Notes under the pieces: model-generated
What the model saw: only the letters and a program-made list of their open reading frames with translations
Databases searched by the model: none
What the model was told of the DNA's origin: nothing
Part shown: positions 1,046 to 39,269 of the stretch, piece by piece
How the letters are laid out: each line of letters opens with the position of its first letter
How positions within the stretch are numbered: position 1 is the stretch's first letter
Program-made: the position numbers and the translations under genes
Source: Paenibacillus stellifer
GTDB lineage: Bacteria; Bacillota; Bacilli; Paenibacillales; Paenibacillaceae
Assembly (NCBI RefSeq): GCF_000758685.1
Contig: NZ_CP009286.1
Location: forward strand, 898,501 to 962,500
Reading direction: 5' to 3'
Length of the DNA: 64,000 bases

Positions 1046-4000
1046 CGACCGGCTGGCAAGAGAACGGATAGTAAGGGATTTGGACATAAACTTTCTGGTG
1101 GAGGCGGGCGCAGGCTCGGGAAAAACTACGTCGCTCGTAGGACGAATGATCGCATATATTGAAACGGGCGCCGCAGAGATCCAGCAAATTGCGGCCATTA
1201 CTTTCACCCGGAAGGCGGCGGACGAACTGCATGGGCGCTTCCGCCTGGAGTTGGAGAAAAGGCTGCCGGCCGCCCAGCCGCCGGTGTCTGGGCGTCTTTC
1301 CAATGCTCTCAGGGATGTGGATCAATGCTTTATCGGCACGATCCACTCGTTCTGCGGCAGGCTGCTGCGGGAGCGGCCGATCGAGGCGGGAGTCGATCCT
1401 CTTTTTCGGGAAATAGAGGAAGAAGAGGCGAAAGTCTTTCGCGACCAGTGCTGGGACGAGTATTTGATGGCTTTGGCGGAGAACGGGGAAGATCGCTCGA
1501 TTGCGGATATGGAAGCTCTTGGGCTGACGGTGGAGGATCTGCGCGAAGTATATCACAAGGTGTCGCTCTATACCGATGTGAAGATTGAAACCCAGCCTTC
1601 TCCGCGTCCCGATTTTGATCTCATCCGGCTGTCGCTTCCCCGCTTGATGGAGCAGGCGGCTCTCTATATCCCTTCGGCAAGGCCTGAAGCGGGCTGGGAT
1701 TCGCTGCAGCAGATGATCAAGGATGGGAGTAGACTGGTCCGGATGCATGGACTGGAAGATGACATGCAGATGCTGAGACTGGCTCAGCTGTTTGACAAGA
1801 GTATCAAAGTCACCCAAAACCGCTGGACGGACAAAGCGGCGGCCAAGGAGAGCGCTACTACCTTTACAGATTGGCAGAAGACTGTTCTGAAGCCGTTTCT
1901 GGCCTCCTGGCGGGAATACCTGTATCCGCAGCTCATTTCCTTTGTGCTGCCGGCCGCCGAGTTCTGCGCCGACCGGCGTAGAGAAGCGGGACTGCTCGAC
2001 TTTGAGGACCTGCTGATGCGATCTACGGAGATGTTGCGCAAGTATCCCGAAGTTGGCAGATCCTTCTCCCGCCGGTACACGAAGCTGCTTGTGGACGAGT
2101 TTCAGGATACCGATCCTGTGCAGGCGGAGCTGATGTTCCAGTTATGTGGAGAGCCGGACGCTGCCGGCGACTGGCGGAAGATCCGGCCGAAACCGGGTTC
2201 GCTGTTCGTTGTCGGCGATCCGAAGCAGTCCATCTACCGGTTTAGACGGGCTGATATTTCCCTCTACAACCAGGTCAAAGCGATGCTGACCAACTGCGGG
2301 GAAGTGCTTCAGCTCACCGCCAATTTCCGGTCTGTTCATGCCATCGGGGAATTCGTGAACGATACGTTTATCCGGACGTTTCCCGGGAAAGAGACGGAGC
2401 ATCAGTCCTCTTTTGTCGCCATGGATACGGTCACGCTGAATCCAACACTTACGAATCATGAGGAGAAGGCGACCTTTGGCGTGAGGACATTGACATTGCC
2501 CAAGATGGCGGGTGGCAAAGCCGCTATCTCTAAGACGGATGCCGAGCAGGTCGCGGCATATCTTGCCTGGGCCTGTTCCGGGAACCTGCAGATTCAGGAT
2601 AAGGATGAAACGGGGGAGCTGCTTATGCGTGAAGCGGTCCCGGGTGATTTTCTCATTCTGCTTAAGAAAAGAGAGTTCATCTCCCTGTATGCGCAAAAGC
2701 TTGAATCTTACGGAATCCCAGCGATTACCTCCGGCAGTTCGGCCATGTATGGGGAAATTGCGGCCCTGGCGATGCTGGCACAATGTCTTAACGATCCGGA
2801 CGACCGGATTGCGCTACTGGCCGTGCTGAGAGGACCGTTGTTCGGCCTGAGCGACCAGTCGCTGTACGCCTTTACGCAGGAGGGACGCCGGCTCGGTTTT
2901 CGCGGACTTGGGGAGCGAGAGGAAATGCCTGCAGGGCACCTGCTTCAGGTTTACGCTACTTTAGCGAAGCTGTCTGAGTTCGATCGGAAGGTCCGGGAGC
3001 TTCCGGCTCTGGCGGCCTTGCTATCGATCATGGAGGAGATGGGGCTGATTCCTCTTGCGGCCGTCAGGGAGAATGGATTGAGCCGGTCCGGGACTTTGCT
3101 GAATGTCGTTCAGCTGCTCCAGCGAAACCCGGTTCAAGCTGGCAGTTGGGCGGATTTGACCGTGGCGCTGAACCGTATGGCGGAAAAGGAGGCGTTGGAA
3201 GGCGGCAATCTGTTCGCCGGACAGCTGGACGCGGTGCGGATTATGAATCTACATAAAGCCAAAGGGCTTGAGGCGCACGTAGTCTTTCTTGCTTGTCCGG
3301 TGGGGGAGTGCAGCCATGAGGCTTCCGAATATATCGATCGGTCCGGGGAGACGGTTAAAGGTTACTTCAGCATCAGTCGGCAGAAAGGCTACCAAACGGA
3401 GCTGCTAGCCCATCCGCCGGGATGGGCGGAGCTCAGCGGCAAGGAGCGGCTGTTCATGGAAGCCGAGAAGGAGCGGCTGCTGTACGTTGCGGCGACAAGG
3501 GCCAAGCAACTGCTCGTTATTTCCCGTTATCCGGACAAGCCGGCTGCCGATCCCTGGAGCGGTTTAGTGGACAGTCTTCCGGATGCCGCGGAGCTGCCAG
3601 CTGTTTCAGCGGTTAAGGCCGTGCCTGCGATCTATGAAGATGAGCACGATCGAACCGCGGATGAAGAAGAAAGCCAAGCGATGCGGAGCCGCTTAGCCCG
3701 GCCGACTTACCGGGTGGCTTCGGTTACGGAACTGGCCAAGCAGAAGGGAGAACACCCGCCTCGTCCGCTTGAGGGAAGAGGGATGGCTTTTGGCAGCACA
3801 GTTCACCGCTGTATCGAGCTTTTGGGCAGAGGGCAGTCCCTTGAAGAGCTCGAAGACGAGATTAAATGGATTGCGGGCGAGGAACAAATCGAAGAGCGGT
3901 TGATACCCGAAGTCAAGGCGATGCTTCGGGAAGTGGAGAGGCATGAACTGTGGAACAGAAGCCGGAGAGCCCAGCGCTGTCTGCATGAGCTGCCGATCCG

Positions 4001-4241
4001 GACCCGCTCAGAGAACTTGCTTATCAAGGGAGTCGTTGACTTTCTGTTCGAGGAGGAAGACGGCTGGGTGGTCGTCGATTTCAAGACCGATGTGTATGAG
4101 CAGCAGCAGCGGCAAGCTTTTGTGGACTTTTACCGTCCGCAGGTTGAGGCCTACCGTAATGAACTGGAGCGTGCCTTCGGGATGAAGGTCAAAGAGTCGG
4201 GGCTGTATTTTCTGCACGGAAACGAGTATGTGACGCTGTGA
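1038..4241 (+). CDS. UvrD/AddA-like helicase with C-terminal nuclease domain
   Basis: A 1067-residue superfamily-1 helicase that should unwind and degrade DNA ends together with the upstream AddB-like subunit. Visible motifs are Walker A GAGSGKTT near residue 23, LLVDEFQDTDP near 350, VVGDPKQSIYRFRRAD, LTANFRS, MNLHKAKGLE near 735 and LYVAATRAK near 815. The C-terminal nuclease shows GVVDFLFEEEDG and VVVDFKTD near 1010. The start is a TTG at 1038, seven bases after GGAGGTG. It is shorter than typical AddA (about 1230 residues), so it may be a distinct AddA-like branch. All helicase motifs and the DFKTD nuclease motif look intact. Confidence 0.88.
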   Translation: MINDRLARERIVRDLDINFLVEAGAGSGKTTSLVGRMIAYIETGAAEIQQIAAITFTRKAADELHGRFRLELEKRLPAAQPPVSGRLSNALRDVDQCFIGTIHSFCGRLLRERPIEAGVDPLFREIEEEEAKVFRDQCWDEYLMALAENGEDRSIADMEALGLTVEDLREVYHKVSLYTDVKIETQPSPRPDFDLIRLSLPRLMEQAALYIPSARPEAGWDSLQQMIKDGSRLVRMHGLEDDMQMLRLAQLFDKSIKVTQNRWTDKAAAKESATTFTDWQKTVLKPFLASWREYLYPQLISFVLPAAEFCADRRREAGLLDFEDLLMRSTEMLRKYPEVGRSFSRRYTKLLVDEFQDTDPVQAELMFQLCGEPDAAGDWRKIRPKPGSLFVVGDPKQSIYRFRRADISLYNQVKAMLTNCGEVLQLTANFRSVHAIGEFVNDTFIRTFPGKETEHQSSFVAMDTVTLNPTLTNHEEKATFGVRTLTLPKMAGGKAAISKTDAEQVAAYLAWACSGNLQIQDKDETGELLMREAVPGDFLILLKKREFISLYAQKLESYGIPAITSGSSAMYGEIAALAMLAQCLNDPDDRIALLAVLRGPLFGLSDQSLYAFTQEGRRLGFRGLGEREEMPAGHLLQVYATLAKLSEFDRKVRELPALAALLSIMEEMGLIPLAAVRENGLSRSGTLLNVVQLLQRNPVQAGSWADLTVALNRMAEKEALEGGNLFAGQLDAVRIMNLHKAKGLEAHVVFLACPVGECSHEASEYIDRSGETVKGYFSISRQKGYQTELLAHPPGWAELSGKERLFMEAEKERLLYVAATRAKQLLVISRYPDKPAADPWSGLVDSLPDAAELPAVSAVKAVPAIYEDEHDRTADEEESQAMRSRLARPTYRVASVTELAKQKGEHPPRPLEGRGMAFGSTVHRCIELLGRGQSLEELEDEIKWIAGEEQIEERLIPEVKAMLREVERHELWNRSRRAQRCLHELPIRTRSENLLIKGVVDFLFEEEDGWVVVDFKTDVYEQQQRQAFVDFYRPQVEAYRNELERAFGMKVKESGLYFLHGNEYVTL

Positions 4242-4449
4242 CGGCTAGGTAGCCAGTCCAAGCAGGCGCCCCAGCTGGCTGAAAGGAGATAAGCTTCTGA
4301 ACCGGTGGAATATACGAGGCAGGTAGATCCAAAGATTTCACATTTCTGGCTGGTTCTGACTACGGTTTCTAGGCTCTTCAGCAGGGTCAGCATAATTTGG
4401 GCCAGTGACATGAGATTGTTGCGAAATTTCTATTTGAGGAGGAATAGTA

Positions 4450-4728
4450 ATGGGGGTTCTGATATGGTCAGTTCTTGTTCTGGGTTTAATCATCAATTTA
4501 TTAGTGTTTCTGAAATATGAGAAAAAAACTTACTGGGAACGTGCATCCGGGTATCCGACATCGATTAGTTTTCTCACGCTTATTATGGGCTTCTCAGGGA
4601 TTGGTTCCTTTGACCAAGTCTACAAACTTGATAACTCTACTTATAAAATGGCCTTAGGTTATCTTTTTTCTGGAGTCATGGTGATGTATATTGTTCTTTT
4701 GATTACAAGATTAAAAAGATACTCTTAG
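4450..4728 (+). CDS. Small membrane protein, paralogue of the IS630-interrupted gene at 7824
   Basis: A 92-residue protein with an N-terminal hydrophobic helix (residues ~2-20) and two more hydrophobic stretches near 38-52 and 66-86. A good AGGAGG site sits about 8 bases before the ATG. The order of helices, and C-terminal words such as YLFSGVMVMYIVLLI, match the reconstructed protein at 7824-7991 plus 9131-9247. That other copy is preceded by an XRE-type regulator gene; this one is not. Small HTH plus membrane-protein pairs of this kind are common in Bacillales. The function is unknown. Confidence 0.75.
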   Translation: MGVLIWSVLVLGLIINLLVFLKYEKKTYWERASGYPTSISFLTLIMGFSGIGSFDQVYKLDNSTYKMALGYLFSGVMVMYIVLLITRLKRYS

Positions 4729-4842
4729 TCACCTCTATTTGTTAATACCATTTCCGAATGTTTGTTCGCTGACCGCTATATGGCATTATCTAAAGTCATA
4801 ATGTAACCAACGAACATGTTATTGAATTCGGAGGTGATAGCA

Positions 4843-5133
4843 ATGGCCTTGCGGCGTGTACAACGTGTTGTTATCAGTCATTTAAAATGTCCCCATTGCA
4901 GCAATGTGTTTCCTATAGCTAGAAAGGCAAATCGGCAGAAGGAACCTAATCATATCAAACATCTGTGGTGTATTCGCTGCCGAGATGTTACGGGGCATTT
5001 AGAAAATATCAAACCGGTTCCCAAACCCGATGCAAGTCTTCCCTATTGGATAAGGCTCAAGTATGAAAACTTGCAGATGGTAGATGATGTGCAGTACTGG
5101 ATAAATGTCTTTTCTTCAGGGGGAGTACTTTAA
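4843..5133 (+). CDS. Small zinc-ribbon protein, function unknown
   Basis: A 96-residue basic protein with two Cys pairs, CPHC near residue 16 and CIRC near residue 45, which should bind one zinc ion. The start is taken at the ATG at 4843 because GGAGGTGATAG lies just before it; an in-frame ATG at 4816 has no ribosome site. The C-terminal half is acidic to neutral with Trp and Tyr residues. No enzymatic motif is seen. I do not recognise a named family. It stands alone between two small genes of equally unclear role. Confidence 0.65.
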   Translation: MALRRVQRVVISHLKCPHCSNVFPIARKANRQKEPNHIKHLWCIRCRDVTGHLENIKPVPKPDASLPYWIRLKYENLQMVDDVQYWINVFSSGGVL

Positions 5134-5314
5134 TTGATGGCAAGATATTGGTCAAAGAGACGAGGACGGGGAACGTTCATTCTCTTGATGATCACATCTT
5201 AGTAGCTATTGATTATCCATATTAAGCGCATAGACCGAATATTAATCGACTAGGAGATTTTGTTAAGGCGTAATTAAACGATTGAACAAGGGAAGAAATG
5301 AAGGGAGCTAACCA

Positions 5315-5668
5315 ATGGAAATCACTCTAGATATGAGCAAAGGAGCATTAATAATTGCGAAAAAAGTATTTTCAGGAGAATTAACAAGAAGTGAAGGGAA
5401 AATTGAAATTAATAAGCGTACGGGTATGAATGAAGGATCGGCACAGGATTTTATTACAATTTTTTTGGCTATGATGAGTGGGAAAGTGTATAAGAGAACC
5501 TTCAATAATGTTACCAATAAATTTCTGCTTGAAAGTATCAGACAAGAGTTTGGCGACGAATCCTACAGAAAGGCTTTAAACGCTGTTCAGCAGCATATAG
5601 AATATTACTCTACTTTGGGTAAAGGAAATTTAACAGGTTTACAACAGATTATAAATCAAATGAAATAA
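5315..5668 (+). CDS. Orphan head-domain protein resembling the N-terminus of ScoMcrA-type endonucleases
   Basis: A 117-residue protein. The central block NEGSAQDFITIFLAMMSG, followed by YKRT and a QQHIEYY segment, resembles (from memory) the small helical head domain that precedes SRA and HNH domains in ScoMcrA-like type IV restriction enzymes. No SRA or HNH domain follows: the frame ends at 5668 and the next 280 bases are non-coding. It is therefore either a stand-alone domain protein or the front end of a lost enzyme. A weak GGGAG site precedes the ATG. The family match is tentative. Confidence 0.55.
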   Translation: MEITLDMSKGALIIAKKVFSGELTRSEGKIEINKRTGMNEGSAQDFITIFLAMMSGKVYKRTFNNVTNKFLLESIRQEFGDESYRKALNAVQQHIEYYSTLGKGNLTGLQQIINQMK

Positions 5669-5956
5669 CACCAGAACCCAATAATATAAAATTTTTGTAA
5701 TACGCGAGCGTTTTTCATGTGGAACATGAGGTAATGAACATAGGCATCATTGCCGTAAAACTGCCGCAAAAATATGTGATAAAGTATAGTAAAGAAAAAG
5801 AATCCTAAGACAACTGATTGCAAGAACCTTGATTCTATGCGATATTAAGCAACTATAAACAGATGCCGTGGAAATGAGATTGCTTCCCGCATACGGTGAA
5901 TATGGAGTCGGTAGCAGTGTTGTATCGGAATTGAACTTAACATGCTGAATTACAAT

Positions 5957-22263: not shown

Positions 22264-22476
22264 GAGAATATCACAAACGGCACGCTTGGCGATCGCTATT
22301 TGCTCTCGCTGTTCTCCTTTAATGGAGTAGAACTGGGGCAGTTGGCCGTCCTGGTAGTTCTGCTTCCGCTGCTGCTGTGGGCGGCGAGGTTCAAATCGTA
22401 TAAAAGGGTCAGCTTCGGCCTGTCGGCGGTCATCGGTCTGATTGGGCTGTATTGGTTCGTCACGCGGCTGTTCTGA
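22264..22476 (+). pseudogene. HupE/UreJ-like membrane protein, C-terminal fragment
   Basis: A frame of ~70 residues with no start site ends at 22476. It reads SLFSFNGVELGQLAVLVVLL, then a basic break, then a final hydrophobic helix ending FVTRLF. The FNxGVExGQL pattern is characteristic of the last helices of HupE/UreJ-family proteins. The N-terminal part is missing, and 22131-22263 shows nothing recognisable. It is followed directly by a terminator. Confidence 0.6.
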
Positions 22477-22489
22477 TTATCCATGTGCG

Positions 22490-22520
22490 CCTCGCTTCGC
22501 AAGAAGCGGGGTTTCTTTTT
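22490..22520 (+). terminator. Rho-independent terminator
   Basis: CCTCGCTTC / GAAGCGGGG stem around GCAA, then TTTCTTTTT. It insulates the following RNA-repair leader from upstream transcription. Confidence 0.75.
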
Positions 22521-22559
22521 GCGATCATCTAATTAATTACCCCGGAGGGACCTAGGTGA

Positions 22560-22627
22560 AATGGAAAACTTTATACCTGTCGTAATACTTTCGCCATGTT
22601 CGATCCGCTTGAAATGAGCGATTATAG
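22560..22627 (+). promoter_or_regulatory. RNA-repair leader element, copy A
   Basis: The first of three related ~70-base segments in the window. It shares 24 identical bases (22579-22602) with copy B at 38382-38405, a 14-base AATGGAAAACTTTA block with the same copy, and the core GTAATACTTT with copy C. An inverted TCGC..GCGA pair spans its second half. It ends 10 bases before the tRNA-like sequence at 22638 and lies upstream of the slipin-rtcB genes. Confidence 0.7.
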
Positions 22628-22637
22628 AACCTGTAAG

Positions 22638-22741
22638 ACGCACTGTGCAAGTTGGTAGACGCTGATGGCGTTCATCATACATCGGTTCTTATGCGGACGG
22701 TCGTAACGAGGCGGGGATATCGGTTTATCCCGCAGTGCCGT
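22638..22741 (+). ncRNA. tRNA-like (class II cloverleaf) RNA candidate
   Basis: The segment can be folded by eye into a complete cloverleaf of ~104 nt. Acceptor-like stem: ACGCACTG (22638-22645) with CAGTGCCGT (22733-22741, one bulge). D-arm: GTG/CGC stem with loop CAAGTTGGTAGA, the Leu-tRNA type with G18G19. Anticodon-like arm: TGATG (22663-22667) / CATCA (22673-22677). Long variable arm: TTATG / CGTAA (22689-22706). T-like arm: 22711-22733, GCGGGGATA with TATCCCGC. It lacks a normal seven-base anticodon loop and the TTCRA T-loop, so it should not decode. The position upstream of slipin-rtcB suggests an RNA partner or decoy of the repair system. Confidence 0.5.
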
Positions 22742-22817
22742 GCCTGTTAGGTTACGGTATCCTGTACGATCGGATCGGTAAGAATCCACTATTTGGGGTT
22801 CGATTCCCCAATCGCCT
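22709..22817 (+). ncRNA. Second tRNA-like segment with canonical T-arm
   Basis: TGGGG (22794-22798), loop TTCGATT and CCCCA (22806-22810) form a textbook tRNA T-arm, followed by a seven-base ATCGCCT. That 3' strand can pair with AGGCGGG at 22709-22715 (six of seven positions, one wobble). A GATA-TCGGTT-TATC D-like arm lies at 22716-22729. The middle is longer than in a normal tRNA and no clear anticodon arm is seen. Its 5' part overlaps the T-like arm of the first candidate, so the two folds are alternatives or the segments are rearranged tRNA pieces. Confidence 0.4.
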
Positions 22818-22897
22818 TGGGAGCGATTCTGGTAGAGCACTCGACTTTCAATCGAGCGAAAGTTGATCAAAAGACCAAAGGATAGAATCCCTGGCGG
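22812..22897 (+). ncRNA. Third tRNA-like segment with perfect anticodon arm
   Basis: CTCGA (22840-22844), loop CTTTCAA and TCGAG (22852-22856) form an exact 5-bp/7-nt anticodon arm with U33 and anticodon TTC (Glu). A D-loop-like CTGGTAGAGCA precedes it. The end strands TCGCC (22812-22816) and GGCGG can pair. The D-stem has only two pairs and the T-arm (AGGATAGAATCCCT) has lost the TTCRA loop, so a charged, translating tRNA is unlikely. Confidence 0.4.
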
Positions 22898-22989
22898 CTA
22901 TTTATGCGCACTGTAGGAAAAGGCTTTGCAATCCGTGGATACCGATGATGCGAAATTCCGGAGGCTTTTCTGGGATGGAAGAGGAAGAA

Positions 22990-23100
22990 GGGTAGCTGAA
23001 GCTGAGTTAACTTTCTGACTCGAATCTCCTTGGAAATTCCTGGCAGCCCGCTGATCTAAAACGCGATTCCGCCCAAACCGCAGAGGGATTCTAATTCCAA
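22990..23100 (+). other. Possible Leu-tRNA-like relic before slipin
   Basis: Words such as GAAATTCCTGGCAG, CGCTGATCTAAAACGC and GGGATTCTAATTCC appear in the order and spacing of the D-arm, anticodon region (TAA, Leu) and T-arm of a class II tRNA, but stem pairing is poor. From 22898 to 22989 nothing definite is seen. This may be a more decayed member of the same tRNA-like series. Confidence 0.25.
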
Positions 23101-23128
23101 TGGTGAAACAATGAGGGGGTTAACGATT

Positions 23129-23765
23129 ATGTTTAAAAAAATAACCATTCAAGCTGACCAGCGCGGTCTGCTCTTTCATAAAGGCAGCTATGTGAAAAAG
23201 CTCGCTCCGGGGACCTATCATTTTGTACCGTGGTCGCAAACGACTGTTGTGGTGTTGAATATCGCCAAGCCGTTCGCTGTTGAGGGCAAGGACTTACAGC
23301 TGTTCCTTCAGGATGAAGAGCTCATGCGGGAGCTCGATGTCGTACGGGTGCAAGATCATGAATACGTGCTGCATTACGAGGACGGCCAATTCGTGCAGCT
23401 GCTTAAGCCGGGCGTCTACGCCTACTGGAATATGCTGAAACAACATACCTTTTTGCATGCGGATATCAGACAGCCTGAATTGCCTGCTGAGATAGACCGT
23501 TCGATTGTACCGAAGCTTGCGGTCCATTTGCAGTCCTGCGAGATCGCGAGTTACGAAACCGGTTTTTTGTTCTATGATCATGTGCTGCAGCCTGCTGAAT
23601 ACCGCCAAGCTGATGGACGAGAATCAGACGCTGTTCCGCCTGAAGGAGCTGGAGTTCCTTGAGAAAATATGCGAGAAAATCGGCTCCATCTCGGTAACGG
23701 GCGGCGGAGATTTGCTGGAGCGGTTAAGCTCTTTGCTCGGTGAGAAGAAAGCGTCAGGCCAGTAA
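23129..23765 (+). pseudogene. Slipin (SPFH/Band 7) gene with large internal deletion
   Basis: The first ~150 residues (MFKKITIQADQRGLLFHKG onward) match the N-terminal part of the long slipins found beside RtcB. After YETGFLFYDHV the frame runs into unrelated residues, because the DNA jumps at about 23590. The real C-terminus (TAKLMDENQTLFRLKELEFL, then ISVTGGGDLLERL) follows in another frame to 23765. The whole central SPFH domain is lost. Slipins are membrane-associated scaffolds; in RNA-repair operons they lie next to rtcB, as here. The start at 23129 follows GAGGGGGT. Confidence 0.8.
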
Positions 23766-23822
23766 TGAACACCAATGGCTCTAAACTTAGAAAATATATT
23801 TATGTAGGAGTTGAACGACCTA

Positions 23823-25049
23823 ATGGCTTATCAAAATATAGATGGCGTGCGTGTCTGGGGCAATCCTGACAGCGGTGCGCTTGCTCAAGCGAGAACCTGT
23901 GCAGAAACCGGCAATGTGGTTCAAACACTGCTGATGGCGGATCATCATAAAGGGTACAGTCAGCCGATCGGCGGGGTTGTCGTGTATGACGGGCAAATCT
24001 CGCCTTCCGGCGTTGGCTATGATATTGCATGCGGAAATAAAGCAGTGAGAACCAGTCTGACTGCCGAAGACATAAAGCCAGGATTGGCGAAGATTATGGA
24101 TAAGATTGCCCGTAAAATCTCCTTCGGGGTGGGACGGGTCAATAAGGAGAAGGTCGATCATGACCTCTTCGATGATCCGGATTGGGCCGTTTACCAAGCG
24201 ATCGGCAAGCAGGAGCATGACAAGCTGAAAGCACTGGCGCAAAGCCAGCTCGGCACGGTCGGCAGCGGCAATCACTTCGTTGACCTGTTTGAAGAAGCGG
24301 GAACCGGCCGTTTGTGGATCGCGAATCATTTTGGAAGCCGGGGCTTCGGGCATAAGACGGCAAGCGGATTTATCAATCTGGCTGCCGGCAGAGAGTTCCT
24401 CGCGAACGCCCCCGGTGAGAAAATGGACCAGCCGCCTGTACTGCTTGATCTGAGCAGTGAGCTTGGCGACCTGTATTACAGAGCGATGAGGCTGGCCGGA
24501 CGTTATGCGTATGCCGGAAGGGATTACGTGATTCAGCAAGTATTAGCCATTCTGGGAATGGAAGCGGACCTTGAAGTGCATAACCATCATAACTATGCAT
24601 GGAAGGAGATACACAACGGGAAAGAAGTCGTTGTCGTTCGTAAAGGGGCGACCCCATCCGCGCCCGGTCAAGTTGGTTTTATCGGCGGCAGTATGGGGGA
24701 TATTTCCGTTATCGTTAAAGGGAAGGACAGTATAGAGAACAAGGAGTCTTACTACAGCACCGTTCATGGAGCGGGACGAATCATGAGCCGAACCCAGGCG
24801 GCAGGCAAAATGAATTGGAAAACCCGCACCCGCAGCGGCGGCCAAATCAGCACCGCACAAATGATGAATGCCGTTCGGAATTTCGGTGTTGAGCTGCGCG
24901 GCGCAGGGACGGACGAGAGTCCTTTTGTATACCGGAAGCTTCAGGAAGTGCTGGATGCACATGCGGAAACGATTGAGGTCATGCATGTGCTGAAGCCGAT
25001 TGGTGTATGCATGGCTGGAGCGGATGAGTTCGATCCGTATAAGGATTAG
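23823..25049 (+). CDS. rtcB: RNA-splicing/repair ligase RtcB
   Basis: A 408-residue GTP- and Mn-dependent RNA ligase that joins 2',3'-cyclic phosphate or 3'-phosphate ends to 5'-OH ends. The metal and active-site motifs are all visible: GVGYDIACGNKAVRT (Asp, Cys), GSGNHFVDL, NHFGSRGFGHK, HNHHNYAW, and the guanylylated-His region TVHGAGRIMSR near residue 320. It begins in the usual way, MAYQNIDGVRVWGNP. AGGAG lies 12 bases before the ATG, a little far; a TTG at 23811 is the alternative. It is one of only two clearly intact enzymes left in the RNA-repair island, and follows the broken slipin by 57 bases. Confidence 0.95.
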   Translation: MAYQNIDGVRVWGNPDSGALAQARTCAETGNVVQTLLMADHHKGYSQPIGGVVVYDGQISPSGVGYDIACGNKAVRTSLTAEDIKPGLAKIMDKIARKISFGVGRVNKEKVDHDLFDDPDWAVYQAIGKQEHDKLKALAQSQLGTVGSGNHFVDLFEEAGTGRLWIANHFGSRGFGHKTASGFINLAAGREFLANAPGEKMDQPPVLLDLSSELGDLYYRAMRLAGRYAYAGRDYVIQQVLAILGMEADLEVHNHHNYAWKEIHNGKEVVVVRKGATPSAPGQVGFIGGSMGDISVIVKGKDSIENKESYYSTVHGAGRIMSRTQAAGKMNWKTRTRSGGQISTAQMMNAVRNFGVELRGAGTDESPFVYRKLQEVLDAHAETIEVMHVLKPIGVCMAGADEFDPYKD

Positions 25050-25677: not shown

Positions 25678-27915
25678 ATGCCACTACCGGAATCACTTAC
25701 TCAAATTTTTAAGAGAAAGCAAAAATCCTATAAGATGGTTCTGATCCTATCCTTAATTCAAGAGCTGAGAGCATCCAATCAGGAGAGGGTTTCATTCGAT
25801 AGAGTTAAAGAGCTTTTCCTTAGATACTTTATTGCCGAACAAGAAAGAGGAAATCGGGTGGATAAGCCACCAGGGCGGGAGTTATGGATGGAGGCAACCC
25901 CAAGCCAGCTTAAAGATATCGTAAACAGCCCAGTTAATGCGCTCTCGCATATTTTGTTTGTGAATTCGGAGGATAATTCAATAGGTTTTCACAACCAGAT
26001 TCAACAACAGCTAGGAGAAGAAGAGCTCTTTCAGTTGGAACAAATGGCGAACAAAGAACTACAGGAATACAATGCTGCATTGCAGCACTTTTCCCTACAA
26101 GGTCATCTGGAGAAGATACTGGCGGAGTACACCTTTGCTAAAAGAGAAACCTTCGCTGGTCACCCGTTAGGAACCCAATTTAGGCAGACACTCCCTTCTG
26201 AGCTCAAAACGCTGCCATTCTTAGATGAGCAGTATAAAATTCAGGGTTCTGTTGGGCAGGGGAATTGGGCGACAATACCTTGGCTCGCCATATTGGATAA
26301 ACGAATCACAGAAACGACTCAACGCGGAGAGTACGTCGTATATTTATTTGCAGAGGATATGAGTGCCGTTTACCTAACACTTGCTCAGGGAGTGACTATT
26401 CCTGTACAAGAGAAGGGGCGTAAAGAGGCATATGTATATCTGCGCAATAAAACGAAAGAAATTCGAGAACTTGTTCCGCTTGCTAATATGAATAAAGATG
26501 AAGACATTCATCTGATGAGTAGTGGTTTGGGACAGGATTATCAGGTGTCCACTGTTGCTTATATCAAGTACGAAAGAGGTAACGTGCCGGATGATGAGCG
26601 GCTCATTGAAGATCTACAGAACGTAATGGAAAACTACCGTCTGTATGTGGAAAGTCTCTCATCTTCAGATGAGGAAACAAATGAAGTGAGGGGTGAAGCA
26701 TTGTTAAGTGAAATAGAACCACTACAGGATGAACAACTAGCTGGTGTTCTTCAACAGATCCAATTCTTCATCATCCAAAAAGGCTTCTTCTTCCCTGAGC
26801 ATCTCATCGAGAACTTCTACCTCTCTCTAAAAACGAAGCCCTTCGTTATCTTGGCAGGGATATCGGGTACGGGAAAGACCCGTTTGGTTAAGCTATTCGC
26901 GGAAGCACTCGGATCGACGGTGGAGAATGGTCAGTTTACCTTAATTCCAGTCCGTCCGGATTGGAGTGACCCTTCTGATCTGCTCGGATACAAGGACCTT
27001 ACAGGCAGGTTCAAGCCAGGCCCATTAACTGAGGTGCTAGCGGAAGCAAGAAAGCCAGAGAATCAGCATAAGTCTTATTTTGTTTGCCTAGATGAAATGA
27101 ACTTGGCTCGAGTGGAGCATTATTTTTGCGATTTGTTAAGTGTATTGGAGACGCAAGATTGGCATGAGGGTAAGATTCGGACTCAAGGTTTAATCTCCTC
27201 CACCATGCTGGATATGCCTAATGATCAGGCGAAGTACGGTAATCTTTCAATACCAGAGAATGTCTTCTTGATCGGAACGGTGAACATGGACGAAACGACG
27301 TACCCTTTTAGCAAAAAAGTACTGGACCGAGCCAATACATTAGAATTTAACTATATCAATCTTGAACAGTATCCGGATTCCAATGAATCTTTGAACCTTA
27401 GTGAGACTTTCGATCTTTCTGAAATGAACCATTTGCTTCTGCGCTCGGATTATTTGCAACTGGTTGACGCTTATGATGCTAATAAAGAGCTCATCATTCG
27501 CACAACGGAAAGATTAGTTAAGATCAATGTTTTACTCGAGGACATCCATGCTCATGTGGGCTTTCGGGTGCGCGACGCGATTTGCTTCTACATGATCTAT
27601 AACGATCGGTTCAACCTCATGAGTGAAGAAGAAGCCTTTGATTGGCAACTGCTCCAAAAGATTCTACCGCGAATCCAAGGGAGTCATGCCTCGGTCCGTC
27701 GAGTTTTGCTAAACCTAATTAAAGGTGCTCTTGGTAACGGAAGCGGCATTTCGGTCAATATTCAAGACCTCATGGAGGATACATCACCGTTGTACACGAG
27801 ATGGAACGCAGGTCAGACTCCACCCATGGCCAAGCATCCTCAAAGTGCACGGAAATTGGCTTTTATGCTGAGGAGGCTCGAAGAAGATGGATTCACTTCC
27901 TACTGGCTCTCTTAA
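25678..27915 (+). CDS. McrB-like AAA+ NTPase of a type IV restriction system
   Basis: A 745-residue protein. The middle (residues ~180-300) has the MrcB_N-type domain (GSVGQGNWATIPWLAILDKR). The AAA+ domain starts near 390 with Walker A GISGTGKTR. It continues with RPDWSDPSDLLGYKDL, Walker B FVCLDEMNLARVEHYF and the McrB signature GTVNMDETT. The N-terminal ~170 residues are helical and probably recognise DNA or a partner. McrB uses GTP to translocate modified DNA toward its McrC-type nuclease. GGGGGAG precedes the ATG. The end overlaps the next gene by 29 bases, so the two are translated as a pair. No damage is seen. Confidence 0.9.
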   Translation: MPLPESLTQIFKRKQKSYKMVLILSLIQELRASNQERVSFDRVKELFLRYFIAEQERGNRVDKPPGRELWMEATPSQLKDIVNSPVNALSHILFVNSEDNSIGFHNQIQQQLGEEELFQLEQMANKELQEYNAALQHFSLQGHLEKILAEYTFAKRETFAGHPLGTQFRQTLPSELKTLPFLDEQYKIQGSVGQGNWATIPWLAILDKRITETTQRGEYVVYLFAEDMSAVYLTLAQGVTIPVQEKGRKEAYVYLRNKTKEIRELVPLANMNKDEDIHLMSSGLGQDYQVSTVAYIKYERGNVPDDERLIEDLQNVMENYRLYVESLSSSDEETNEVRGEALLSEIEPLQDEQLAGVLQQIQFFIIQKGFFFPEHLIENFYLSLKTKPFVILAGISGTGKTRLVKLFAEALGSTVENGQFTLIPVRPDWSDPSDLLGYKDLTGRFKPGPLTEVLAEARKPENQHKSYFVCLDEMNLARVEHYFCDLLSVLETQDWHEGKIRTQGLISSTMLDMPNDQAKYGNLSIPENVFLIGTVNMDETTYPFSKKVLDRANTLEFNYINLEQYPDSNESLNLSETFDLSEMNHLLLRSDYLQLVDAYDANKELIIRTTERLVKINVLLEDIHAHVGFRVRDAICFYMIYNDRFNLMSEEEAFDWQLLQKILPRIQGSHASVRRVLLNLIKGALGNGSGISVNIQDLMEDTSPLYTRWNAGQTPPMAKHPQSARKLAFMLRRLEEDGFTSYWLS

Positions 27916-30310
27916 TCAGACGGTTGAATTGCTCCGTGTAGACACGGAGCTTTTTACACTCTATCTTCAAGGACGCCCCTACCATCCGACAGTGGAGACA
28001 TTGCAGCTTCATCGGTCTTCTAATCAGGAATGGGTGAATGCGCAGCTTGGTCTCACATGTTCTGATAAAGTCGGCGAAGCTCAGATTAAAGTTTTTTCCC
28101 CTAACGTAATGGGATTGGTAGATTGGCAGCCAGGAGAATCTACGTTTCCTTGTTTCTACGAAACTCAATCGTATGAGTTGGTCATCCAAAAGAAAAATGT
28201 ATCGGGCATTCTTTCATACTATCATGAAAATATACTTCTCCGGCAAGCCATCAAGCCTTTAGGCGATTCCATTATTGCGGGTGTTTTGAATTTTGGAAAT
28301 GAGGTCGGTCTGACCGAATGGGAGATTCGTAACGAGGGGCAGACCTTGCTGCGGGTCGAGATGGAGATTTTCCCTTCTAAGATGGATTACAAGCAGGATT
28401 ACCAGAATATTTTGAATGAAGTGAATGAGCAGATCTATAACCTGGCGTTTGATTTCTTACGTAGAACCTACCAAATGACAGGGCTGCGGGAGACACAATA
28501 TCAGAGCTTGACAGAGTTTTTTACCATTCTACAGCACATATTTAGTCAGCTACTGGATGCAGTGGGGCGGATTCAAAACAACCCCCATCACACGCTTCTT
28601 CAGGACCGCCGTTTGGTTGATGCCAATCGGGTGAAGAAAGCGGGAAGGGAGAATGCAAGAGAGCTGGCAAGACATCCCGAGCGATTAAGAGAAGACATGA
28701 CCTATGGATTTTTGACGATTGGGGACCGAAAATACACAGCTACTCATTTACTGGAGACGCGAAGGAATCTCTCCTATGATACAAATGAGAACCGGTTCAT
28801 TCGCTGGATGCTGGAACGAATACTTGGGAAGCTCAAGGAGTTGAAGGCTCGTTGGCATGAGAAAAACCGCACACAAGACCCGCTGCTGGTAAAGCGGATA
28901 GAGAATATGATTGTTCAATTGGAGCGGTTATTGAAAGTGGATTTTTTGCGAGAGGTCGGGTTATTGAAACAGATGTCCGTTACGCTTGTTCTGCAAATGG
29001 CGCCAGGATATCGAGAAGTGTATCGCTGTTATTTGATGCTTTTGAAAGGCTTATCTATCCAAAGTGACTTGTTCCGATTGTCCATGAAAGATGTGGCTCA
29101 ACTCTATGAGTATTGGTGCTTCTTAAAGCTTAATCAATTGCTTGGACGGAAGTATAAGTTGGTGAAGCAGGATATTATCAAGGTTAATCGCAATGGTATA
29201 TTCGTGACCTTGGATCGATCGCGGAGTGCTCAGATGGTCTATGAGAATCCGACAAACGGAGAACAGTTTATTTTGTACTATAATGCAATTCCTAGCTCTG
29301 AACAGACTCCCACTCTAAGCCAGCGTCCGGATAATGTCCTGACACTGAAGAAGAAGGATGCAGGTAGTGTCAAAGAGTACAAGTATGTGTTCGATGCGAA
29401 ATATCGTCTGAATTCAGCGTATGAGGGAACTCCCTATCACAAAGCATATGGACAACCCGGACCTGAAGAGGAAGATATTAATACAATGCACAGGTATCGC
29501 GACGCTATTGTCTATCAGGAGAAAGGCTCGGGAGAATATGAGCGAAGCATGTTTGGTGCCTATGTCTTATTTCCTTATCCAGACGAAGAGCGGTTTAAGA
29601 GCCACCGATTCTATAAAAGCATCGAGCTTTTGAATATAGGAGCTTTGCCGTTCTTGCCTAATTCTACAAGCTTGGTGGAGCAATTCTTAAATGAAATCAT
29701 CCAAGATAGTCCGGAAAAAGCATTTGAACGCTCTACAGGTTCACGTGGGACGAAGGAATACTACGCGAACAAGCTCACAGGTAAAAATGTATTAGTGGGG
29801 TCTGTGCGAGGACCTGAGCAAGTCGAGACCGCATTAAGACACTCATTCTATCACGTTCCCTTAAAGAACCTTGATGTCAAGATCCTAACCCAAATCGAAT
29901 ATGTAGCCATGTGCCAATCCAGAAAGAAATTTAATGATACCGCTAAAACAGGAATCCACTGGGTAGGCAAGATTGTAGATTGGAAGGTGCTACGGCGTAA
30001 GGAAATCAGGGAGATTCCTCCTCGTCCCGGGACAGGTGAAAGGCTGTTTGTGCGATTCACGGTTGAGAAATGGATGAGCCGAGAGACTCCCATTGCGCTT
30101 GGAGGACAGAGCATTTACACGCTTCTGTTCACGAGTAAGTATATCCTCGATCGTGCTCTGGAAATCGCTGAGCTTCGCCTAGATACGGAAGAAGACATTC
30201 GTGAATGGCGTGAGAAGCGCAGAAAGGGTAGAGTAAAAGTTAAACTCGACCATGAACAATATGTAGATTTGGGTAGGGTTGTGGAGGTTCAGTATACTGA
30301 AATGGAGTAG
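27887..30310 (+). CDS. DUF2357 restriction-endonuclease-like protein (McrC-type partner)
   Basis: An 807-residue protein of the DUF2357 family, which pairs with McrB-like NTPases. The C-terminal nuclease fold shows SQRPDNVLTL followed by the catalytic YKYVFDAKYRL (PD...D-x-K) near residues 480-510. The N-terminal half is mainly beta, then long helices (residues ~170-430) likely to bridge to the NTPase ring. The ATG lies inside the McrB gene after CGAAGAAG. Together the pair forms a predicted type IV system that cuts modified DNA. The gene is intact. Confidence 0.87.
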   Translation: MDSLPTGSLNQTVELLRVDTELFTLYLQGRPYHPTVETLQLHRSSNQEWVNAQLGLTCSDKVGEAQIKVFSPNVMGLVDWQPGESTFPCFYETQSYELVIQKKNVSGILSYYHENILLRQAIKPLGDSIIAGVLNFGNEVGLTEWEIRNEGQTLLRVEMEIFPSKMDYKQDYQNILNEVNEQIYNLAFDFLRRTYQMTGLRETQYQSLTEFFTILQHIFSQLLDAVGRIQNNPHHTLLQDRRLVDANRVKKAGRENARELARHPERLREDMTYGFLTIGDRKYTATHLLETRRNLSYDTNENRFIRWMLERILGKLKELKARWHEKNRTQDPLLVKRIENMIVQLERLLKVDFLREVGLLKQMSVTLVLQMAPGYREVYRCYLMLLKGLSIQSDLFRLSMKDVAQLYEYWCFLKLNQLLGRKYKLVKQDIIKVNRNGIFVTLDRSRSAQMVYENPTNGEQFILYYNAIPSSEQTPTLSQRPDNVLTLKKKDAGSVKEYKYVFDAKYRLNSAYEGTPYHKAYGQPGPEEEDINTMHRYRDAIVYQEKGSGEYERSMFGAYVLFPYPDEERFKSHRFYKSIELLNIGALPFLPNSTSLVEQFLNEIIQDSPEKAFERSTGSRGTKEYYANKLTGKNVLVGSVRGPEQVETALRHSFYHVPLKNLDVKILTQIEYVAMCQSRKKFNDTAKTGIHWVGKIVDWKVLRRKEIREIPPRPGTGERLFVRFTVEKWMSRETPIALGGQSIYTLLFTSKYILDRALEIAELRLDTEEDIREWREKRRKGRVKVKLDHEQYVDLGRVVEVQYTEME

Positions 30311-36981: not shown

Positions 36982-38070
36982 ATGTTGGTACATAAAGCTT
37001 ACAAATATCGGATCTATCCGAACCCGAAACAACGTCAACTCATCCATCAAATGTTTGGCTGTTGCCGCTTTGTCTTCAATCATTTCTTAGTCAAATGGAG
37101 CGAAACCTATGCGGCAACCGGTAAAGGGTTGTCCTATAACGCCTGTGCCACGCAGCTTCCTGCACTCAAACAGCAATTTGAATGGCTAAAATCGGTAGAT
37201 AGCATTGCTCTGCAATCGGCGGTGCGAAACGTGGCAGACAGCTTTGAACGTTTCTTCAAGAAACAAAATCAGGCCCCACGCTTCAAAAGCCGAAAGCATC
37301 CTGTTCAAAGCTACACCACCAAATACACCAATGACAACATTGCGATGAACGGAAACCGACTGAAGCTTCCGAAGCTTGGCTGGCTTCGCTTTGCCAACTC
37401 CAGAGCGTGTGAAGGTCGCATTCTTTCGGCTACCCTGCGGCGAAATGCGGCAGGCAAGTATTTTGTATCCATCCTCTGCGAAGTGGAAATGAACCCTCTG
37501 CCACAGACCGATAAGGAGATCGGCATTGACCTTGGACTCAAGGAATTAGCGGTCTGCTCGGATGGGAGGCGGGTTGCCAATCCTAAAGTGTTTCGCAAAT
37601 ATGAGCAAAAACTGGCATTTTGGCAACGCCGCATGGCTCGCCGTAACCAAGGGGGCTCCAATTGGCAGAAAGCCAAACAGAAGGTTGCCCAAATCCATGA
37701 AAAGATTGTGGGCAGCCGCCATGATTTTTTGCATCAACTCACCACGAAGCTGATTCGTGAAAACCAAACGATCAGCATCGAAAATCTGAGAGTGGCGAAC
37801 ATGCTCAAAAATCACCGGCTGGCCAAATCCATCGCCGATGCGTCGTGGGGTGAATTTGCCCGTCAGCTTGCGTATAAAGCGGAATGGTATGGACGGACGG
37901 TGAAGGTAGCGGATACATTCGCTCCAACGAGCCAAAGGTGTCATGTATGCGGCACGATCCACCCCGAAGCAAAGAAATTGTCTGTGCGAGAATGGACATG
38001 CCCATCATGCCATACCCATCATGATCGAGATGAAAATGCCGCACATAACATCAAAAGCCTTGGTGTTTAA
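36982..38070 (+). CDS. tnpB: TnpB RNA-guided nuclease (IS605/IS1341 type)
   Basis: A 362-residue TnpB, the compact RuvC nuclease related to Cas12. RuvC motifs are present: [11 protein letters not shown] (Asp) near residue 178, ISIENLRV (Glu) near 262, and [11 protein letters not shown] (Asp) near 347. The zinc finger is CHVCG ... CPSC. The N-terminal part ([13 protein letters not shown]) is the usual opening. AAAGGAGG precedes the ATG. TnpB cuts DNA next to a short motif, using the omega RNA from its own 3' region as guide. All key residues are present. Confidence 0.92.
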
Positions 38071-38360: not shown

Positions 38361-38432
38361 AATGGAAAACTTTAGTTCAGCGTCGTAATACTTTCGCCAT
38401 GTTCGCCGTCTCCATAATGAGCGAAGATAGAA
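38361..38432 (+). promoter_or_regulatory. RNA-repair leader element, copy B
   Basis: The closest relative of copy A: AATGGAAAACTTTA, then a 24-base block (38382-38405) identical to 22579-22602, then AATGAGCGAAGATAGAA. The TTCGC / GCGAA inverted pair is exact here. It lies 55 bases before the RlaP-like start codon. The 38285-38360 stretch before it shows no gene. Confidence 0.7.
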
Positions 38433-38486: not shown

Positions 38487-39269
38487 ATGTCCGATATAAA
38501 CCAGGTCATTCTGGAAGAGTTAAGAAGCATCGAAGAGGAAGAAGGGGTTCGGATTCTGTATGCCTGTGAATCGGGCAGCCGTGCATGGGGGTTCCCCTCC
38601 AAGGACAGCGACTACGACGTCAGATTTCTCTATATCCGGCCTGTGGATTGGTATTTATCGATTTTTGATAAACGGGATGTCATTGAACGGCCGATCAGCG
38701 ATAGGCTCGATATCAACGGCTGGGATTTGAGAAAGGCGCTGAACCTATTCCGCAAGTCGAACCCGCCTCTCTTGGAGTGGCTTCAATCGCCGCTCGTGTA
38801 CAAGGAGAACCGTCTGATAACCGAACAAATCCGGGAAATCTCGCCCTTAACTTTTTCTCCCAAGTCGTGCATTCATCATTATCTGCATATGGCCAAGGGG
38901 AACTACCGCGACTACCTGCAAGGGGATCAGGTCAAGATCAAGAAGTATTTCTATGTTCTCCGTCCGATTTTGGCCTGTGAATGGATTGAGAAGTACGACG
39001 CCATGCCACCAATCGAATTTGACCGGCTTGTCGAAGAACTGGTGCCGGCGGAGAGCTTGCTACGGACAGTTATTGACGGACTCCTGGTTCGCAAAAGAGC
39101 AGGCGACGAGATGGATTTTGAAGCCAGAATCAACCCGATCAATGACTTTTTGGAGGAGAAAATAGCGTATTATGAGCGGACGGCATCCGGAATGCGGCCC
39201 GGTGACGGCAACCAGGATCAGCAGCTTGACGATTTGTTCCGGACCATGCTCCATGACGTGTGGGGATGA
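38487..39269 (+). CDS. RlaP-type nucleotidyltransferase (DNA polymerase beta family, RNA-repair associated)
   Basis: A 260-residue protein of the family often annotated YcgL/RlaP. The nucleotidyltransferase motif is visible as ACESGSRAWGFPSKDSDYDVRFLY (G-S plus D-x-D) near residues 27-50, followed by helical segments such as HHYLHMAKGNYRDY. RlaP proteins are predicted to add nucleotides at RNA ends and occur next to RNA ligases. TAAGGAGGAGG precedes the ATG. The gene appears complete, and its stop is followed at once by the truncated aldo/keto reductase. With rtcB it is a surviving intact enzyme of the island. Confidence 0.85.
   Translation: MSDINQVILEELRSIEEEEGVRILYACESGSRAWGFPSKDSDYDVRFLYIRPVDWYLSIFDKRDVIERPISDRLDINGWDLRKALNLFRKSNPPLLEWLQSPLVYKENRLITEQIREISPLTFSPKSCIHHYLHMAKGNYRDYLQGDQVKIKKYFYVLRPILACEWIEKYDAMPPIEFDRLVEELVPAESLLRTVIDGLLVRKRAGDEMDFEARINPINDFLEEKIAYYERTASGMRPGDGNQDQQLDDLFRTMLHDVWG

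Follow-up and report, generated by a model that had tools for sequence, protein, structure and literature searches.

What kind of RNA, if any, precedes the slipin-rtcB unit of Paenibacillus stellifer? The original prediction placed a non-decoding class II tRNA-like RNA at positions 22638 to 22741 of the window (the whole stretch of 64,000 nucleotides that we analyzed) and drew it as a cloverleaf with five arms. The locus does encode a tRNA mimic upstream of slipin-rtcB, with covariation and no sign of a decoding role, and to this extent the prediction was right. The RNA itself is larger, about 430 nt, and is one of a class of tRNA mimics that are linked to slipin and found in RNA-repair loci; its genuine tRNA-like part (22795-22856) falls outside the segment first drawn.

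The letters quoted for 22638-22741 are present as given. The cloverleaf built on them is not real: its fold is only marginally better than that of shuffled sequence (-36.2 kcal/mol versus a shuffle mean of -31.9, SD 3.18, z = -1.34, with 18 of 200 shuffles folding at least as well), the minimum-energy fold is not the one drawn, and most arms are not kept in relatives. We tested the arms on an alignment of 18 sequences (the window and 17 relatives), from which the divergent rows L016, L030, L031, L035, and L041 of a set of 23 were left out. Seven pairs of the acceptor stem were tested, the eighth being omitted because it shares a base with the T-like arm; one side of the stem is gapped in 5 to 12 of the 18 sequences, and of the 7 sequences with letters at the innermost pair tested, 1 forms it. 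In the long variable arm, TTATG/CGTAA, the last pair forms in 1 of 18. The hairpin at 22659-22671 keeps its four pairs in the 7 sequences that have them, but these pairs are invariant and show no covariation. The stretch around 22638-22678 is itself present, in full or in part, in 7 of the 18 aligned sequences. What survives is the "T-like" hairpin at 22711-22733, which is conserved, with 97.9% of cells paired and two pairs showing double changes. It is this real hairpin that carries the score of the whole drawing, 87.7% of cells paired against 85.6% in shuffles and at most 55.2% with slid partners. Thus, covariation across relatives holds for this hairpin and for the larger RNA described below, but not for the rest of the cloverleaf.

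A structured RNA with strong covariation spans about 22680 to 23105 (Table 1). Two alignments define it: one of 23 motif-to-slipin stretches (the window and 22 relatives), and one of 80 sequences (the window and 79 named loci) made by MAFFT without structure. RNAalifold recovered largely the same helices from both, with many compensatory changes. The 5' domain (window 22679-22861) has 56 pairs in the 23 sequences, and its statistics overstate independence because the sequences are related and the structure was derived from them: 93.3% of 1235 cells are paired, versus 87.2% in shuffles and at most 47.6% with slid partners; 25 pairs show double changes, versus 8.9 in shuffles; the covariation score is 0.218 versus 0.118; and none of 500 shuffles reaches the observed pairing or double-change values. 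The slid controls fall far below the observed pairing despite the kinship of the sequences. The 3' domain is closed by GACC/GGTC in most relatives; its outermost pair is unformed in the window.

Table 1. Features of the RNA locus and of the rlaP locus in the window.
Feature	Position	Strand	Evidence or remark
Promoter-type element, whole	22562-22629	+	Nearly fixed spacing; upstream of the RNA
Upstream box TGGAAAACTTT	22562-22572	+	Promoter-type element
22-mer CGTAATACTTTCGCCATGTTCG	22581-22602	+	Promoter-type element
Downstream box AATGAGCGATTATAGAA	22613-22629	+	Promoter-type element
Lineage-specific 5' stretch (5' strand of the predicted acceptor and "D-arm")	22638-22678	+	Pairs not kept
Rod domain	22684-22786	+	Covariation (23 sequences), recovered on 80
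Rod helices	22684-22696/22775-22786; 22698-22710/22762-22772	+	Covariation
Rod hairpins	22711-22733; 22735-22760	+	Covariation
T-arm GGGG-TTCGATT-CCCC	22795-22809	+	Paired in 23/23 sequences; 80-sequence alignment
Acceptor-like hairpin AATCGC-CTTGGGA-GCGATT	22810-22828	+	Covariation
D-loop remnant TGGTAGAGCA	22830-22839	+	5' strand of the D-stem absent in the window
Anticodon-like arm CTCGA-CTTTCAA-TCGAG	22840-22856	+	Covariation
3' domain, long irregular rod	22873-23105	+	RNAalifold covariation on 23 and 80 sequences
Slipin (SPFH/Band 7) gene, broken	23129-23756	+	Pieces 23129-23593 and 23589-23756
rtcB, RNA ligase gene	23811-25049	+	PF01139, E = 2e-70
Second exact copy of 22-mer CGTAATACTTTCGCCATGTTCG	38384-38405	+	Upstream of rlaP
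rlaP, RNA-repair nucleotidyltransferase gene	38487-39269	+	PF10127, E = 5e-96

The core of this RNA is a circularly permuted tRNA mimic, in which a T-arm is followed by a capped acceptor hairpin, a D-loop remnant, and an anticodon-like arm. The tRNA is permuted because the 3' half of the acceptor comes before its 5' half; the resulting order is what a tRNA would show if it were cut open in its variable region and joined at its acceptor end, with TGGTAGAGC between the 5' acceptor strand and the anticodon-like arm. The TTCRA T-loop, which had been reported missing, is present as TTCGATT at 22799-22805. One pair of the acceptor hairpin is C-G in 59 sequences and U-A in 19 of the 80-sequence alignment, and in distant loci the hairpin has other sequences that are still complementary.

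To describe the arms across the class, we took a census of 83 RNAs (the 80 plus L056, L071, and L072), which is regex based and approximate and whose T-arm search required TTCRA. A T-arm with the loop TTCRANN is found in 78 of the 83, and 77 of these form 4 or more of the 5 stem pairs; L143, L177, L183, L187, and L193 lack a T-loop recognizable to this census. The acceptor hairpin has at least 4 bp in 76 RNAs. Among the 78 with a T-arm, 24 have an intact D-arm of the GCTC..GAGC type. An anticodon-like arm of 5 bp and 7 nt occurs in 60 of the 83, and 54 of these have U33, a share biased by a script that favored U33. The commonest loops are CTTTCAA (15), CTTTTAA (11), and CTTCCAA (7), and their triplets vary by lineage (UUC, UUU, UCC, GGU, and GUU type). 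In L161-type members every arm is intact, the D-arm included, and we take some members of the class to resemble tRNA-Lys(UUU). A functional tRNA gene would show linear order, a CCA site, and an ARAGORN call; the window RNA is permuted and capped, and ARAGORN calls neither a tRNA nor a tmRNA within the window, although a stray tRNA-Arg call overlaps the RNA in the related loci L015 and L149. Rfam, at gathering score, gives no match in the window or in nine related loci. A permissive Rfam scan of 22400-23150 returned one match to a piece of a lncRNA (E = 4.6), which we took as chance.

Next, we determined which gene the RNA accompanies. Slipin loci were collected by scanning contigs with an intact slipin (L067), and the best 80 of 188 relatives were kept, a set that favors close relatives. 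A covariance model of the 5' domain, R1, matches upstream of slipin in 79 of these 80 loci; the sole miss, L184, has a truncated slipin. In seven extra slipin loci, R1 matches L090 and L091 and misses L092, L093, L094, L096, and L097; L093 nonetheless has a T-arm and capped acceptor element, and L090 (genome G029) has an acceptor under 6 bp. In a survey of 198 genomes of the order (R1 at E <= 1e-8, slipin at E <= 1e-40), R1 was found in 70, slipin in 74, and both in 69. In all 69, the RNA and slipin are on the same strand, with the RNA 231 to 513 nt (median, 287 nt) upstream. Five of the 74 slipin genomes have no R1 match (G004, G023, G055, G120, and G127), and G256 has a partial RNA and no slipin. 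Among 398 genomes sampled from the phylum, three (G000, G029, and G505) give strong R1 matches, and all three bear slipin; G669, G749, G645, and G725 have a slipin below E = 1e-60 and no R1 match.

Of the best 80 of 188 loci, 35 encode RtcB in the flanks that were fetched (up to 3 kb), and 18 carry rlaP by our count. The RNA is thus tied to slipin more than to rtcB: of the slipin-rtcB unit to which the original prediction linked it, it is slipin rather than rtcB that the link concerns. We propose to define the class by a conserved, structured RNA that immediately precedes slipin and is encoded on its strand, and the window contains such an RNA. The window slipin is nonetheless damaged: the central part of the protein is gone and the reading frame changes (the intact relative L067 has 371 amino acids and matches Band_7 at 7e-23), and rtcB and rlaP look intact. 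Since slipin is broken, yet the RNA scores 201.6 bits with R1 (best in the 80 loci, 203.8 bits; the window is among the 23 training sequences), either slipin was lost recently or the RNA can do without it. The only matches of the slipin protein are to SPFH proteins (stomatins, QmcA, HflK, and an unnamed membrane protein) and to Band_7, with no RNA-binding family among them. An AlphaFold2 model from 23 sequences (mean pLDDT, 69.8; pTM, 0.48) predicts, with modest confidence, three repeated beta modules before the SPFH core.

Slipin also occurs outside this group. A protein search found it in nine plasmid records and in no phage record; we examined seven of the nine (all except H3 and H6), namely, one from Citrobacter, two from Escherichia coli, two from Burkholderia, one from Photobacterium, and one from Subdoligranulum. 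In 12 distant loci, with the second E. coli copy not counted, we looked in the 600 nt upstream of slipin for a T-arm and, behind it, a capped acceptor of 6 bp or more. Five contain this pair and so have a similar permuted element (Citrobacter, E. coli, Subdoligranulum, and two other Bacillota, G749 and G505), each with a different acceptor sequence. By comparison, 50 of the best 80 of 188 Paenibacillus-type loci pass this test, as do 1 of 1516 control windows and 2 of 4000 first-order shuffles. Three of the seven misses, two Burkholderia and one Photobacterium, have unpermuted tRNA-like units instead. With the Rfam tRNA model, one Burkholderia scores 44.0 bits and the Photobacterium units score 54.1 and 46.4 bits; in the second Burkholderia locus (L205) there is an odd ARAGORN call only and no Rfam tRNA match. 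By eye, the anticodon arm of both Burkholderia loci ends in a loop of 3 or 4 nt. ARAGORN reads the second of the Photobacterium units as tRNA-Met, and this one might decode. Neither form is found in the 600 nt before the match in L092, L094, L096, and L097, in three of which the tested stretch is partly coding because the match begins inside the gene. In Citrobacter, rtcR is divergent from slipin and a nucleotidyltransferase gene. A TGGCACG element, presumably of sigma54 type, lies upstream in the enterobacterial and Burkholderia slipin loci. At the DNA level, 1624 of 5426 complete E. coli genomes (about 30%) contain this RNA region, once each, and it has no annotated feature among the 12 matches listed. 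In one E. coli locus (L207), the RNA-slipin-nucleotidyltransferase cassette occupies 3501-5706 next to yjbD; in K-12 MG1655, yjbD adjoins lysC, with no slipin between them.

These distributions bear on two readings in which the permuted order would be a relic or a processing intermediate. Decayed tandem tRNA genes, with the T-half of one and the 5' half of the next left without function, could give such an order. Weak R1 matches of the phylum search (about 28 to 33 bits), which we rejected as members, indeed fall on tandem tRNA genes at all 17 loci fetched (L073-L089), and the units of Photobacterium are in tandem. However, the acceptor halves remain complementary while their sequence changes, a covariation that contradicts decay; several hundred nucleotides of covarying structure surround them; and the RNA is kept in nearly all slipin loci of the best 80 of 188. 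We consider decay extremely improbable. Alternatively, the RNA could be a permuted tRNA precursor whose open ends are joined by RtcB into a circular or mature tRNA-like molecule. The arm order, the RtcB genes in 35 of the 80 loci, and the complete L161-type members would agree with this. On the other hand, the RNA lacks a CCA end and a normal acceptor length, no bulge-helix-bulge was noticed outside any dedicated search, the E. coli and Citrobacter members are by eye without D- and anticodon arms, and RNA-slipin pairs are found with no RtcB nearby, so that a precursor seems very unlikely.

The RNA is preceded by a 22-mer, CGTAATACTTTCGCCATGTTCG, which in its own genome recurs only upstream of rlaP when up to 3 mismatches are allowed. 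A DNA search with the leader (22540-22640) gave matches in 43 of 118 genomes of the family. At <=2 mismatches the 22-mer is present in 221 of 392 genomes of the order, compared with 3 of 392 for a reversed-pattern control by our reading. We assigned 61 sites in the fetched loci, not counting the window's first site, to their downstream genes: slipin or what remains of it follows 23 of them, rlaP 14, a Ro60-like gene 15 (in 13 loci), a gene of the RtcB family 5, and a Hen1-like gene 1, with 3 unassigned. In the Ro60 class of 13 loci, a protein search confirmed 8, and the rest were judged by their N terminus. Where the boxes are present at these 61 sites, the spacing from the 22-mer to TGGAAAACTTT on the 5' side and to a AGCGAAGATAG-like box on the 3' side is nearly fixed, and we therefore read the whole as a probable promoter or activator site. 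With up to 4 mismatches allowed, 53 of the best 80 of 188 slipin loci have the 22-mer no more than 1 kb upstream; in 19 of the other 27, by our reading, an RtcB gene precedes the RNA. Judging from sequence, this nearly invariant 22-mer, which marks RNA-repair genes, suggests an unknown regulator of the response to tRNA damage in Paenibacillus relatives. A helix-turn-helix regulator gene (L065, 3-674, minus strand) is divergent from a Y RNA-Ro60-rlaP cluster and is a candidate for the protein that binds the 22-mer; a search without a positive control found no counterpart in the P. stellifer genome.

The sites upstream of Ro60-like genes bring in a second group of RNAs. In part of the order, the 22-mer stands before a run of one to three such RNAs, counted by eye, and then a TROVE and vWA_Ro60 gene pair. 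An RNA with permuted T-arm, capped acceptor, and D-arm precedes the Ro60-like gene in 9 of 13 loci scanned (L019, L020, L022, L023, L024, L026, L037, L039, and L049), and L014, L028, L042, and L046 fail the scan. Their acceptor pairs include TTCCTCC/GGAGGAA, TTCCGCC/GGCGGAA, and CCTCACC/GGTGGGG. By position and form these are probably Y RNAs; Rfam at gathering score gave no match in the five loci scanned (L019, L024, L026, L037, and L049). The mention of Y-RNA-like RNAs in the original prediction was therefore well placed, as RNAs with a tRNA domain precede Ro60 genes in the same order and behind the same promoter-type motif.

Is the slipin-linked RNA itself an ordinary Y RNA of the YrlA class whose Ro60 partner has been lost or replaced? 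Its permuted domain has the T, D, and acceptor features seen before Ro60 in the order, it has the promoter-type motif in common with the Ro60-linked RNAs, and Y RNAs are known in RNA-repair operons (PMC7790460). A tRNA-like module with these features and a setting in such operons are likewise what it shares with YrlA and bacterial Y RNAs as described in PMC7790460 and PMC8394870. Yet a Y RNA with Ro60 had to be rejected for the genome of the window, where a protein search found no TROVE (Ro60) match, and among 23 genomes with the slipin-linked RNA, Ro60/Rsr is absent in 20, broken in 1, and intact in 2. R1 gives no clear match in the Ro60-linked loci searched (L020, 13.7 bits); a match in L028 (17.1 bits) falls on tandem tRNA genes and was discarded. 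In addition, the RNA differs from YrlA in its partner (slipin, not Ro60), in its large 3' domain, and in its anticodon-like arm, an element that the YrlA description in PMC8394870 does not list. Thus, of the hallmarks of a Y RNA, the T and acceptor arms and the D-loop module are present, and the Ro60 partner gene and a curated Rfam match are absent. We regard this reading as improbable. Because the slipin-linked RNA is found mostly without Ro60, slipin-RNA and Ro60-Y RNA look like alternative modules, possibly of one regulon.

What, then, might the RNA do? We favor, at a probability of about 0.5, a trans-acting mimic of the tRNA elbow that is held by slipin and serves as bait or scaffold for repair enzymes or nucleases. 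On tRNA damage, the common promoter would turn on RNA and slipin, RlaP, and RtcB. The RNA would fold as a tRNA-like elbow, non-decoding and without a free CCA end; it would work in trans, anchored at a membrane-bound SPFH assembly of slipin, and could there capture tRNA-handling proteins, either RlaP and RtcB or a tRNA-cutting nuclease. A role in trans is favored because Burkholderia and Photobacterium hold near-complete tRNA-like units in the same place, which would be excisable as separate RNAs. In its favor are the covarying structure, the linkage to slipin, the distant loci with a T-arm and capped acceptor, and the promoter-type motif common to rlaP, rtcB, and Ro60 genes. We count against it that a full D-arm is found in only 24 of 78 RNAs and that 5 of 83 lack the T-loop, and likewise the broken slipin of the window, the want of an RNA-binding family among the slipin matches, the 5 of 74 slipin genomes with no R1 match, the partial RNA without slipin in G256, and the four distant loci with neither form.

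The main rival is a cis-acting leader, in which the RNA would be the slipin 5' untranslated region, sensing a tRNA-binding or tRNA-cutting protein and altering slipin translation or mRNA stability. This also fits. In each of the 69 genomes that have the two together, the RNA is 5' of slipin on the same strand, at a gap of 231 to 513 nt, and its 3' domain stops close to the ribosome-binding site (in the window, 23 nt short of the start codon of slipin); a scan of the window found no terminator-like site on the plus strand between RNA and slipin. However, the Y RNAs of the same regulon sit likewise before Ro60, and Y RNAs elsewhere are known as separate RNAs (PMC7790460, PMC8394870). The unpermuted units of Burkholderia and Photobacterium, which look excisable, also speak against a leader. 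On balance we hold a leader to be possible though rather unlikely. In a further reading, the RNA would be a sacrificial damage sensor whose anticodon-like loop is cut by whichever anticodon nuclease is active, after which RtcB and RlaP would act on the cleaved RNA within a membrane-bound cage of slipin. We think this unlikely; were it true, bacteria of several phyla would have arrived at one and the same bait-and-repair assembly centered on an imitation of tRNA, in permuted and unpermuted form.

The original prediction held that the mimic could be a ligase substrate, a sensor, or a decoy for tRNA-cutting toxins. The idea of a decoy is not new, since it was proposed for YrlA, whose tRNA-like domain may competitively inhibit an anticodon nuclease according to Hughes et al. 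(PMC7790460), and since a substrate or guide was suggested for an RNA of Pelobacter carbinolicus (PMC3543383). The latter, the "mutant tRNA" Pcar_R0061 published in 2012, lies directly 5' of stomatin-like-rtcA-rtcB and was judged unable to translate (PMC3543383). As a non-translating tRNA mimic directly upstream of a stomatin-like gene, we count it as an independent published case for the slipin-linked mimic. It is described there as an unpermuted cloverleaf derived from tRNA-Asn in one species, unlike the present RNA, which is permuted, embedded in a larger RNA, and found in 70 of 198 genomes of the order. In Anabaena, one regulator, TrcR, is reported to control the trn tRNA array, rtcB, and a slipin gene in translational stress (PMC10272220); that account concerns ordinary tRNA genes on a megaplasmid and another binding sequence and describes no permuted RNA. 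These two cases are the only directly relevant ones among the papers listed for slipin, SPFH, or stomatin with RNA repair, RtcB, or noncoding RNA.

Two-piece tmRNA and permuted tRNA genes also have tRNA halves in rotated order; the slipin-linked RNA differs from them in having no CCA end, no known tag sequence or splicing motif, and, in the window, no ARAGORN call. The class of RNA, the permuted form of its members, and their tight association with slipin look new, in a literature covered thinly for subscription journals. The tasks of slipin and other SPFH proteins in bacterial RNA repair, like the substrates of bacterial RtcB and RlaP, are poorly understood, and a noncoding tRNA mimic tightly tied to slipin, with counterparts in other phyla, offers a concrete RNA partner. 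The idea of tRNA mimics in repair operons is thereby widened beyond Ro60 and Y RNA, and the common promoter-type motif predicts a tRNA damage regulon in Paenibacillus relatives.

Other genes of the window deserve mention. Next to rtcB, 25678-30310 encodes an McrB-like AAA protein and a DUF2357/PD-(D/E)XK_7 protein, a pair that matches the candidate defense pair PDC-M26A/B, the B match being weak. A gene for a TnpB/Cas12f-like transposon protein (36982-38070) lies shortly upstream of the rlaP promoter element. Finally, remnants of Hen1 (PF22032; 33921-34325) and of a Pnkp ligase domain (PF16542; 34303-34800) apparently represent a second, decayed RNA-repair system in the same island.
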